A stretch of 64,000 nt of DNA, taken from assembly GCF_029814175.1 (NCBI RefSeq), contig NZ_CP122312.1, positions 1,426,001-1,490,000 on the forward strand, read 5' to 3'. Made by a program: the position numbers and the translations under genes. Below the pieces are notes generated by a model that saw only the letters and a program-made list of their open reading frames with translations, searched no databases and was not told where the DNA came from. This DNA is from Halospeciosus flavus (GTDB lineage: Archaea; Halobacteriota; Halobacteria; Halobacteriales; Halobacteriaceae). Below, one piece after another: positions 26,517-28,980 of the stretch (position 1 is the stretch's first letter; the number at the start of each line of letters is the position of its first letter).

Positions 26517-26553
26517 CTGTCCACCGGTTCCCAGTTTCTGTCCAGGTGGACAG
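26517..26553. promoter_or_regulatory. Operator-like palindrome upstream of the CHAT gene
   Basis: A perfect 16-base palindrome, CTGTCCAGGTGGACAG, occupies 26538-26553. An extra copy of the half-site CTGTCCA lies at 26517-26523. The palindrome ends about 19 bases upstream of the TATA-like CTTTTTATTC that serves the CHAT gene. This placement, at or just upstream of the TFB-recognition element, is typical of archaeal regulator sites. No regulator can be named. Confidence 0.5.
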
Positions 26554-26570
26554 GTGACGACGGCCAGCAT

Positions 26571-26580
26571 CTTTTTATTC
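26571..26580 (+). promoter_or_regulatory. TATA box of the CHAT gene
   Basis: CTTTTTATTC is centred about 28 bases before the ATG at 26604. That spacing would place the transcription start at or within a few bases of the ATG, so the mRNA is probably leaderless. Confidence 0.5.
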
Positions 26581-26603
26581 AGTCGGGATGTTCTATAATG
26601 TAG

Positions 26604-28712
26604 ATGAGTTCGCGCAGGCGTGGGGACACAGAGGGGAAGTGGAGTGGGCCCCTCTCCATCGACGCCACGAGCGAGGGTCTGACGGTATTCGACGCCGTCG
26701 AACGCCACCAGTGTACGCTGTGGGCGGACGGCGACGTCGTCCCGACCGTCGCCGACTCGGACCGCTTTCTCTTCCCCGTCGACGCGGCAGTGTCCGTCGA
26801 GACCTCGAAGTTGACGCTCCCGAACGGCCCCGCCGTCTTCGTCCGAACCGCGGACGGCGAGACCGTCTCCGAAGCGACGCCACCGGCCGAGGTGAGCGTC
26901 GACACCGGGACGTACAGCATCGAGCTGGCGGCCGCCGTCAAACTGTACGTTCGGGCGAGTGGACCGCTCACCGTCTCGACGTCGGTGAGCGAGATCAGTG
27001 TCGAACTCGAAGACGCGGGAGAGATCCTCGTCGGTGCCCGATCGCGCCACGAGAACCCCGCCGGGACCATCACGACGACGACGGACCCCGTCGACATGAT
27101 GGAGGCGGTCTCCCACCTCGGGTCGGCGCTCAAGACCACGAGTCCGGAGCGCTCGTACCCGACGCTCCGGGGACACCCACCACTCGTCGAACTCGGTGAC
27201 GAAGTGTCGATCCCCGACTCGGTCACCAAACCCGACAACGGAATCCGCCTCGAACTGCCGGCGGAGTACCGCTCGATCTACGTCGGCGCACCGCTGGCGT
27301 ACTACCTCGGCGCCACGATGGAACCGGCACCCGCGCCGAAACTCGTCGTCGGCGACGGCGAGTTCGAACACCGCCTCGACACCCACCGCGGGTTCGAGGC
27401 CGAGGTCGAACGCGTCCTCAAGCAGGTGTTCGTCCTCGACTGCGTCACCCGGACCGAGGGACTCTACCAGGTCGACCTCCACGAACGCGAGGCGCTCGAG
27501 TCGCTCGTCGACCTCGACTTCGACACGCTGTACGACGCCGACCTCGCGACCCAGCTAGAGGCGTACCTCGACGTCGACTACGAGACGGTCGAACCGTACG
27601 TCCCCGACTGGAAGCAGACGACGCACGTCTCGCCGGACCCGAACAGCGTCGAGGTCCTCCCGTTCGTCGTCAACGACCTCGCGGTCGTCCGCTCGCCGAC
27701 GACCCGCGAACTCGGCGACAACGACCTGCAGACCGCGGCGGTCCGCGACTTCATGCGTGGCGGCGACGGGACCCGGAGCGCCGGACTCCGAGACGACACA
27801 CCACACACCGTCCGCCCCGAACAGGTCGACTCCGTCGAGCAGTCGTGGGTCGGCGAGGGCGCCCCGCTGGGCGCGAGCAAGCCGACGACGGTCGCCTTCC
27901 GCAACGGACTCGACCGCGACCACTCCGACGGCGACATCGACATCACCGTCGTCTGCAACGACGAGGAGATGGACGCCGAGGGCGACGTCGTCAACGACGC
28001 CTACGGCCAGCGCTCCGACCTTCCGTTCGACGTGAACGTCCACCGGCACCTCACGACCGACGAACTCCGCGAGGTGCTCGCCGAACCGACCGACTTCTTC
28101 CACTTCATCGGCCACATCGACGGTGAGGGGTTCAAGTGCCCCGACGGACTCCTCGACGTGGCCGACCTGGACCACGTCGGCGTCGACGCGTTCTTCCTGA
28201 ACGCCTGCCAGTCCTACGGGCAGGGGATGGAACTACTGGAGAAAGGCTCCATCTCCGGCGTCGCGACGGTCCGCGACGTCGTCAACCGCGGGGCGGAGGC
28301 CATCGGCAAGACCATCGCCCACCTCCTCAACCGCGGGTTCACGCTGAACGCCGCCCTCGACGTCGCCTCCGACGAGAGCATCATGTCGAATCGCTACGTC
28401 GTCGTCGGCGACGGGACGTTCGCGCTCACCCAGAGCGAGTCGCGGACGCCCATCGTCTACGAGGTCGAGGAAGTCGACGACGTGGACGACGACTACCGCC
28501 TCACGATCCACGCCTACCCGACGAGCGACGCGGGGATGGGGAGTATCCTCTTCCCGTTCGTCGAGAACCGCTACTACCTCAACTCGGGACAGGTCGACTC
28601 CTTCGTCTTGAGCGAGGGCGAACTCGTCGACCTCCTCCAACTGGAGGACGTCCCGGTCAAGACGGAAGACGACCTCTACTGGAGCCACGAGCTTCCCGAA
28701 CTGATCCTCTGA
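26604..28712 (+). CDS. CHAT-domain (caspase-like) protein
   Basis: A 702-residue soluble protein. The C-terminal half carries a CHAT/caspase-fold domain: DFFHFIGHIDGEG with the candidate catalytic His at residue 504, then FFLNACQSYGQGM with the candidate catalytic Cys at 535, about 30 residues later, followed by GVATVRDVVNRGAEAIGKTIAHLLNRG. Both residues of the dyad are intact. The first about 400 residues are beta-rich and not a family I recognise; there are no TPRs, signal peptide or membrane spans. CHAT proteins include separases and the Craspase-type proteases of defence systems, so a peptidase cleaving a specific partner is plausible. No effector, sensor or nuclease gene sits in the same operon. 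The facing micro-membrane gene at 28814 is the only candidate partner. Confidence 0.8.
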   Translation: MSSRRRGDTEGKWSGPLSIDATSEGLTVFDAVERHQCTLWADGDVVPTVADSDRFLFPVDAAVSVETSKLTLPNGPAVFVRTADGETVSEATPPAEVSVDTGTYSIELAAAVKLYVRASGPLTVSTSVSEISVELEDAGEILVGARSRHENPAGTITTTTDPVDMMEAVSHLGSALKTTSPERSYPTLRGHPPLVELGDEVSIPDSVTKPDNGIRLELPAEYRSIYVGAPLAYYLGATMEPAPAPKLVVGDGEFEHRLDTHRGFEAEVERVLKQVFVLDCVTRTEGLYQVDLHEREALESLVDLDFDTLYDADLATQLEAYLDVDYETVEPYVPDWKQTTHVSPDPNSVEVLPFVVNDLAVVRSPTTRELGDNDLQTAAVRDFMRGGDGTRSAGLRDDTPHTVRPEQVDSVEQSWVGEGAPLGASKPTTVAFRNGLDRDHSDGDIDITVVCNDEEMDAEGDVVNDAYGQRSDLPFDVNVHRHLTTDELREVLAEPTDFFHFIGHIDGEGFKCPDGLLDVADLDHVGVDAFFLNACQSYGQGMELLEKGSISGVATVRDVVNRGAEAIGKTIAHLLNRGFTLNAALDVASDESIMSNRYVVVGDGTFALTQSESRTPIVYEVEEVDDVDDDYRLTIHAYPTSDAGMGSILFPFVENRYYLNSGQVDSFVLSEGELVDLLQLEDVPVKTEDDLYWSHELPELIL

Positions 28713-28813
28713 GGCGACGCTCCGTGTCGGATTCCGACGCGAGAAAGATAGGTTGGGGGAGTCGATTCGCCGTTGCCGTTTCTGCCGTGCCTCGGTCCCG
28801 TGGAGTGCCGAGC

Positions 28814-28948
28814 TCAGGGACCGCTGATCGTCGTCGCAGCCGCACCGGCGACGTTCCCGGCCTGCGAGAGCAGGACCGCGACGGTGAACAGCACACCGAC
28901 CGCACGGGGGTTCTCGGTCAGGTGCGACTGGATGCTGGTATCGGACAT
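28814..28948 (-). CDS. 44-residue membrane micro-protein facing the CHAT gene
   Basis: A short protein beginning MSDTSIQSHLTENPRAVG, then one hydrophobic helix (VLFTVAVLLSQAG) and a small Ala/Gly-rich tail ending ISGP. The NPR-x-x-G-x-LF, LLSQAG and final GP pattern is a type I recognise as recurring among tiny haloarchaeal proteins (perhaps DUF7503, unverified). Two in-frame ATGs exist, at 28954 and 28948. The TATA box TTTTATATAT (minus strand, 28971-28980) is centred about 27 bases from 28948, so the second ATG on a leaderless mRNA fits best. The gene converges on the CHAT gene with a 101-base gap. Function unknown. Confidence 0.68.
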   Translation of the reverse strand: MSDTSIQSHLTENPRAVGVLFTVAVLLSQAGNVAGAAATTISGP

Positions 28949-28970
28949 GCGCATTCTAACGAAAGGGCGG

Positions 28971-28980
28971 ATATATAAAA
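28971..28980 (-). promoter_or_regulatory. TATA box of the micro-protein gene
   Basis: The minus strand reads TTTTATATAT, an excellent archaeal TATA element, in an AT-rich patch (about 28955-29045) that stands out against the GC-rich surroundings. The rest of the 28955-29098 gap holds no gene that I can support. Confidence 0.6.

Follow-up and report, generated by a model that had tools for sequence, protein, structure and literature searches.

A 64,000-nucleotide stretch of the Halospeciosus flavus genome (3.56 Mb; contig NZ_CP122312.1, positions 1,426,001 to 1,490,000), here called the window, contains two genes that converge across 101 bases: one encoding a 702-residue protein with the predicted fold of a CHAT/separase-like cysteine protease (26604..28712, plus strand; hereafter the CHAT gene), and a micro-gene encoding a 44-residue protein of the family DUF7503 (28814..28948, minus strand). 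The latter comprises a conserved, signal-peptide-like leader and a variable tail, AAATTISGP (28817..28843, minus strand), which ends in Gly-Pro and is, based on the tail comparisons and covariation described below, proposed to be the ligand of the CHAT protein. Both open reading frames (ORFs), their facing orientation and their spacing had been given in a preliminary description made from the sequence alone and were recovered as described. The micro-ORF measures 44 residues when counted from MSD and 46 from an ATG two codons upstream. Its product scored 65 bits against Pfam PF24335 (cut-off 27), i.e. DUF7503, a family of unknown function, and at E≤1 matched nothing else in Pfam but TPR_20, below threshold.

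The 702-residue protein matched no model in Pfam, NCBIfam or PADLOC at E≤1, including the Pfam CHAT model PF12770, which at E≤0.1 picks up 20 of the 68 aligned family members, with 7.5e-5 as the best value. An AlphaFold2 model built from this alignment of 68 rows (pLDDT 88.9, pTM 0.90) adopts the caspase/separase-like fold of clan CD. Within it, residues 335-609 (27606..28430, plus strand) form the predicted protease region, which in Foldseek and VIA-align searches resembled separase, gingipain, SAVED-CHAT, the anti-sigma factor DdvA and TPR-CHAT, with separase (5fc2; E 4e-8) as the top Foldseek match and VIA-align Z scores of 18.3 for gingipain (rmsd 3.0 over 240 residues), 17.1 for separase (over 238 residues) and 15.7 for SAVED-CHAT. 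The preceding region (residues 13-334; 26640..27605, plus strand) is modeled as a beta-sandwich followed by an alpha/beta part, with beta strands at residues 17-146 and helices at 264-332; on its own it retrieved nothing by Foldseek at E≤0.001, and its best VIA-align matches, to beta-sandwiches of sugar enzymes (Z 8.1), are too weak for interpretation.

His504 (28113..28115, plus strand) and Cys535 (28206..28208, plus strand), previously put forward as dyad candidates, align with the catalytic pair of the family and are the predicted catalytic pair of the protease. Both residues are intact in all 40 DUF7503-paired homologues and in 29 of 37 other homologues having both columns, so the loss from most homologues that would have spoken against the earlier proposal did not occur. 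The eight homologues lacking the pair (loci L159, L160, L111, L112, L103, L113 and L100; three of the eight are in the window's own genome) look like pseudo-enzymes. An association between loss of the dyad and loss of the partner (raw Fisher p 0.0017, counting as paired L112, where a dyad-less CHAT lies opposite a 125-residue Gly-Pro-ending frame) reflects only about two independent events on the tree; it proves nothing and was not used.

Pairing of CHAT and DUF7503 genes

Among 40 genomes of the order, DUF7503 was detected 45 times in 28 genomes (E≤0.001). All 28 also carry a homologue of the window's CHAT gene, which occurs alone in two more. Outside the window's genome, each of the 36 DUF7503 matches (39 genomes) is convergent with a CHAT gene, as are four of the nine matches within it, and the paralogous pairs of this genome carry different tails. 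The pairing proposed in the preliminary description would have been contradicted by micro-protein homologues lying no more often near CHAT genes than elsewhere, and these counts bear the pairing out. In the 40 pairs, the distance from stop to stop ranges from -4 to 260 nt, with an overlap of 4 nt in ten. Named haloarchaeal genomes supplied a set of 80 CHAT loci, which are the best 80 of 524 relatives, thus lean to close ones, and share at least four genes with the 40-genome set. A convergent DUF7503 is present in 71 of them and another convergent ORF ending in Gly-Pro in seven (one with Ns). The two remaining loci are L231, which is cut by a contig end, and L222 of Natronomonas, the single exception in orientation among the 80, where DUF7503 (L222:6470-6628) lies 1.36 kb away on the same strand as the CHAT gene; L222 is absent from the table of 111 paired DUF7503 proteins used below.

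Partners other than DUF7503 point in the same direction. Beside 29 dyad-intact CHAT genes without a strong DUF7503 match, a convergent ORF ending in Gly-Pro was found within 6 nt in seven cases and at 174-263 nt in three more; as a background, such an ORF lies within 130 bp of 2 of 632 other genes, one being itself DUF7503 (Fisher 5e-9 for 7/29 vs 2/632). In the loci of 20 unpaired CHAT genes, nearly all dyad-intact, no Gly-Pro ORF with a start codon was present. A 175-row CHAT set used below leaves out fragments shorter than 420 residues and four genomes outside the order; four genes occur twice in it, removal of the second copies leaving 171 rows, and the tail counts over 111 and 119 proteins as well as the first covariation counts still contain these duplicates. 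Taken together, the sequence comparisons point to the CHAT-DUF7503 pair as an undescribed protease-peptide pair of haloarchaea.

Orphan DUF7503 ORFs of the window's genome (L021-L025, near 777423, 1801088, 1929186, 2249148 and 2738757) lie in dispersed repeats of ~250 bp that are 88-96% identical over the main matches, and end in ..VWGCGSLGP. Inverted repeats were seen in neither of the two repeats examined. The five repeats might be copies of a small element that is mobile or has been amplified.

Beyond the order, a phylum sample of 246 genomes yielded homologues of the CHAT protein in four, which belong to a single family; these have no catalytic motif by the pattern used and no DUF7503, and a single Gly-Pro-ending frame of ~150 residues overlaps the end of the L276 CHAT gene there. 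Plasmid homologues (25 records) all belong to haloarchaeal genera and are annotated as "caspase family protein" and "CHAT domain-containing protein" once each, one being unannotated and the rest "hypothetical"; for Halorussus aquaticus, the micro-gene is missing from the plasmid gene table used, which is incomplete. A viral or phage origin was rejected, as neither a pattern scan of IMG/VR contigs nor phage records yielded a relative. Neither protein matched any PADLOC family of known anti-phage defense. A literature search covering mainly open-access journal papers returned no mention of DUF7503, no paper joining "CHAT domain" with haloarchaea or Haloferax, and none joining archaea or haloarchaea with quorum sensing and peptide pheromones. 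In Haloferax volcanii, caspase-like activity without gene homologues was reported to be the dominant form of proteolysis (PMC3615174). The CHAT family is a candidate source of this activity, another source being possible.

Partner tails and covarying CHAT residues

The two parts of the micro-protein evolve differently. The leader P[RK]MxGxLFTxxLLLSQAG shows strong conservation throughout the 111 paired DUF7503 proteins, and its helix, uncharged in 116 of 119 DUF7503 proteins, is followed in 111/111 by a signal-peptidase-like pattern (A/V/T/S/G at -3, Ala/Gly at -1). The tails carry little charge, usually comprise 7-9 residues (nine in 78/119) and are highly diverse, with 105 distinct tails among the 119 proteins; nevertheless, 94 of the 111 end in Gly-Pro (99 of 116 distinct pairs after removal of duplicates), the residue preceding Gly-Pro being variable. 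In nine Haloferax sequences, the ratio of nonsynonymous to synonymous differences (pN/pS) comes to 0.07 for the helix and to 0.68 for the nine C-terminal residues, with the end IYGP identical in all nine sequences.

Leaders are replaceable. On the CHAT tree, leader type (DUF7503 match or not) changes four times, or three times if five diverged DUF7503-like leaders, listed by eye, are grouped with DUF7503. Some partners lack a hydrophobic leader altogether, namely the Haloplanus arrays described below and those of L093, L094 and L097, whose top 15-residue hydropathy is below 0.4 vs at least 1.53 in 116 DUF7503 proteins. A second type of CHAT gene, marked by the motif GHC.. NACGS (L093, L094, L097, L101, L114, L115 and L291), faces ORFs of ~20-45 residues that have only their ends in common, such as [KR][VI]STYGGP or GGSGYTGP. 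The shared C-terminal codons of L114/L115 and of L094/L097 differ synonymously.

The partner in Haloplanus ruber has 188 residues and no hydrophobic stretch; it contains 13 units of TADGNSGGISGP[YFS], the last unit lacking the end residue. Four other genomes of the same group (g68, taken as Haloplanus since one member carries the H. ruber ORF) have 4, 5, 7 and 10 units and Haloplanus sp. LUM.53 has two; array gene and dyad-intact CHAT gene converge in all five genomes of g68. The unit resembles DUF7503 tails of Haloferax, Halobellus and others (GNTGVIYGP, GNHGAISGP). Between the 13-residue units of the five larger arrays, pS is 0.18-0.56 and pN 0-0.03, the latter biased low because units were detected by the pattern GN..[GA][IV]SGP following an Asp or Ala. 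Their even 13-residue spacing means that no unit was skipped inside the arrays, although deviant end units could have escaped. Since the units are near-invariant in protein but not in DNA, selection seems to act on every copy at the peptide level.

Tails without Gly-Pro occur in 17 proteins from nine clades (L143, L146, L197, L209 and L241 among them). Thirteen of the 17 have 6-7 residues instead of the usual nine, and eight of the 17 end in TI[RSDA]; three of those that are not shortened keep the full length but have the last Pro replaced (GA, GT, GI). In the corresponding CHAT proteins, the median number of deviations at the 76 columns that are at least 95% conserved with Gly-Pro partners is 0, and the most frequent are at T187 (11 of the 17), D453 (9), L188 (8), K113 (8), G509 (6) and R146 (5). 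After removal of duplicates (73 columns, 136 rows), L188, T187 and K113 each deviate in five of the nine clades and R146 in four; none of 1000 random clade sets of equal sizes reached four columns with at least four deviating clades (mean 0.03, largest 2), an outcome also obtained before the duplicates were taken out. L222, with its tail ending in TIS, has Ser at position 187. In the window, these residues lie at 26940..26942 (K113), 27039..27041 (R146) and, for T187 and L188, within the motif ERSYPTLRGHPP (residues 182-193; 27147..27182), all on the plus strand.

All four residues are canonical in 94/98 CHAT proteins with Gly-Pro-ending DUF7503, in 18/20 with another Gly-Pro-ending partner, in 3/17 with a Gly-Pro-less tail and in 12/25 dyad-intact ones without a partner, L153 lacking these columns. 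Being canonical with other Gly-Pro partners as well and changed in the Gly-Pro-less group, K113, R146, T187 and L188 track the Gly-Pro end rather than the leader. Overall divergence is not sufficient to explain the covariation, as mean identity to the window's CHAT protein is similar for Gly-Pro-less (0.44) and other-Gly-Pro rows (0.43; partnerless, 0.35). Because leaders are swapped while the tail stays, and because CHAT residues covary with its end, the C-terminal tail rather than the membrane helix is, on these comparisons, the essential element of the partner. The idea of a functional pair, put forward earlier as protease-target or protease-sensor, is supported in part: DUF7503 lies beside CHAT genes with few exceptions and the paired homologues keep the His/Cys dyad, but the membrane helix is not what is essential to it, and the micro-protein may be a target, a sensor or an inhibitor.

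As for where the tail might be read, residues 178-188 are well predicted in the full-length model and poorly in the isolated N-terminal domain, and so is the motif at residues 182-193; from these confidence values, the motif probably packs on the catalytic domain. Relative to the active site, the covarying residues suggest only a nearby location.

Promoter elements and neighboring genes

The micro-gene is preceded by the TATA-like element TATTTTATATAT (28971..28982, minus strand) within 82 nt of 65% AT, as previously noted. Sequence above DUF7503 genes is generally of this kind: the 60 nt upstream of the start are richer in AT than the locus in all 117 cases measured of a set of 119 (mean 63% vs 37%), which is consistent with these micro-genes having a promoter of their own. 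Above the CHAT start lies CTTTTTATT at 26571-26579. Scans for sigma-70 promoters and for terminators returned nothing useful.

The operator-like palindrome formerly called perfect, CTGTCCA-GG-TGGACAG, has perfect 7-bp arms around a non-palindromic GG center. Its half-site heptamer occurs five times in the window vs 5.4 expected by chance. With up to one mismatch the palindrome is found at a single place in the genome and, among 293 fetched loci, only in the two covering that same place; of 156 regions preceding CHAT ORFs, a looser pattern matched one, namely its own, although with the first ATG taken as start some of these "upstream" regions are really coding. An operator role was therefore dropped.

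Upstream of the pair, as first outlined, lie ribH (DMRL_synthase) and an aminotransferase of class I/II. The region behind the micro-gene (29099-35051) encodes a major facilitator superfamily (MFS) transporter with kinship to oxalate/formate antiporters, a regulator of the HTH_10 type and, 2.2 kb from the micro-gene, an Opp-type peptide ABC transporter. A link to the latter was rejected, as the window's OppA occurs in no other CHAT locus (flanks of ~3-4 kb, with OppB/C outside that reach). Relatives of the aminotransferase, the most frequent of the neighbors tested, are found near the CHAT gene in 22 of 158 loci, including the window; 20 listed loci of this kind include Haloferax, Halobellus and Haloplanus.

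Candidate mechanism, rivals and known systems

We favor a reading, with a probability of about 0.6, in which the CHAT protein recognizes the tail peptide by its C-terminus at a pocket beside the active site, thereby gating the protease. The two genes would form a haloarchaeal module in which a gene for a separase/CHAT-type cysteine protease is faced by a peptide gene dedicated to it. The replaceable leader would set the location of the peptide, i.e. membrane or export in most lineages and cytosol in Haloplanus, while the fast-evolving tail of ~7-9 residues, mostly Gly-Pro-ended, would serve as ligand, its C-terminus being held between the N-terminal domain (K113, R146, T187, L188) and the catalytic domain. 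Sequence supplies the pairing, orientation, dyad, tail conservation, array selection and covariation, from which we infer that the tail is bound directly, where the pocket lies and that the protease is gated. As to the sense of the gating, control by a pseudosubstrate-like peptide, by analogy with securin acting on separase, is slightly preferred over activation or simple cleavage.

Several observations weigh against this reading. Of 161 distinct dyad-intact CHAT genes, 25 are without DUF7503 or a Gly-Pro-ending partner within 300 bp (two of these do have one: L217, an ORF with Ns, and L222, DUF7503 farther off), and the four canonical residues are kept in 12 of the 25. Five DUF7503 copies in the window's genome stand without a CHAT gene. 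With respect to the covariation, removal of duplicates takes D453 below the 95% limit, and deviations at G509 are confined to a single clade; L143, without Gly-Pro, retains the canonical residues, and the same is true of L171 and L236, in which just the last Pro changed. The tree was a FastTree tree, the random clade sets were unmatched for branch length, and just nine clades lost Gly-Pro. Finally, internal array units are not C-terminal, so that excision or a different mode of binding would be needed.

The same data can be read as a secreted signal, with signal peptidase cutting after [AV]xA and the exported 7-9-residue tail acting as a population or kin signal that is re-imported and read by a cytosolic CHAT protein, triggering proteolysis. 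The uncharged helix, the -3/-1 pattern, the variable low-charge tail of mostly nine residues, the different tails on paralogous pairs and the nearby Opp-type transporter all fit. We consider this unlikely nonetheless, given the partners without a hydrophobic leader (Haloplanus arrays, L093, L094, L097), the confinement of OppA to this one CHAT locus within the flanks covered, and a selection on the helix that is, in our judgment, stronger than expected of a mere signal peptide. That the same partners keep only the tail also makes it improbable that the CHAT protein cuts a 44-residue membrane protein to free a membrane-active fragment, as CHAT or caspase-like proteases do with gasdermins: such a fragment could not be the general product, however well the hydrophobic helix and the convergent pairing with dyad-intact proteases suit the idea.

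Alternatively, the protease might trim the C-terminal Gly-Pro dipeptide or cut within the tail, Gly-Pro-less tails being natural pre-cut forms. Their shortness and recurrent TI[RSDA] ends would agree with this, and the basic K113 and R146, which covary with the end, could hold a carboxylate. The position ahead of Gly-Pro, on the other hand, varies as a typical P1 would not, and we regard trimming as quite improbable. Least credible of all is a coincidental neighborhood or inherited gene order without interaction. A convergent order may be inherited unchanged and the upstream palindrome is not conserved, but the arrangement spans many genera and paralogues, Gly-Pro ends occur on other leaders too, and residues covary.

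With this module, DUF7503 acquires a partner and a role that can be tested, and a protease-peptide pair is seen that is able to swap its leader yet keep its peptide. Should the tail be a signal, this would be peptide signaling read by a protease in archaea. Although unlikely, one may imagine an archaeal class of peptide signaling in which hypervariable nonapeptides ending in Gly-Pro, made from signal-peptide-like precursors or tandem arrays, are received by separase-like proteases in the cytosol. Every paralogue would recognize its own peptide by the C-terminus and respond with proteolysis, in communication, kin recognition or regulated death.

Among known systems, CHAT/caspase-gasdermin pairs combine a caspase-like protease with a neighboring membrane-related protein, and by description the present pair does so too. 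Its partner, however, is a 44-residue helix-plus-tail precursor that belongs to DUF7503 and not to the gasdermins, and in some lineages the helix is absent. Peptide pheromone systems (RRNPP/arbitrium, PapR) pair a short precursor, with an export-type leader and a variable C-terminal peptide, with a large cytosolic reader. The layout of leader, variable C-terminal peptide and large partner is shared, as are tandem copies in some lineages here; the partner in these archaea is a caspase-like protease, and the 702-residue protein, without a Pfam match, has a caspase-like fold in place of a TPR/HTH receptor of the RRNPP type. In Craspase (TPR-CHAT/Csx29 with Csx30), a CHAT protease likewise has a dedicated protein partner, and the fold of the window's protein matches Craspase and SAVED-CHAT with Z of ~12-16; it may differ in its N-terminal part, modeled as a beta-sandwich at residues 17-146 and as helices at 264-332, and it lacks a PADLOC match. 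With separase and securin, finally, the pair has in common the fold of the protease region and a protease with its own small binding partner. Here the partner is encoded next door on the opposite strand, as a peptide gene of 20-188 residues with a C-terminal Gly-Pro, and by our own analogy it may inhibit the protease in the manner of securin.

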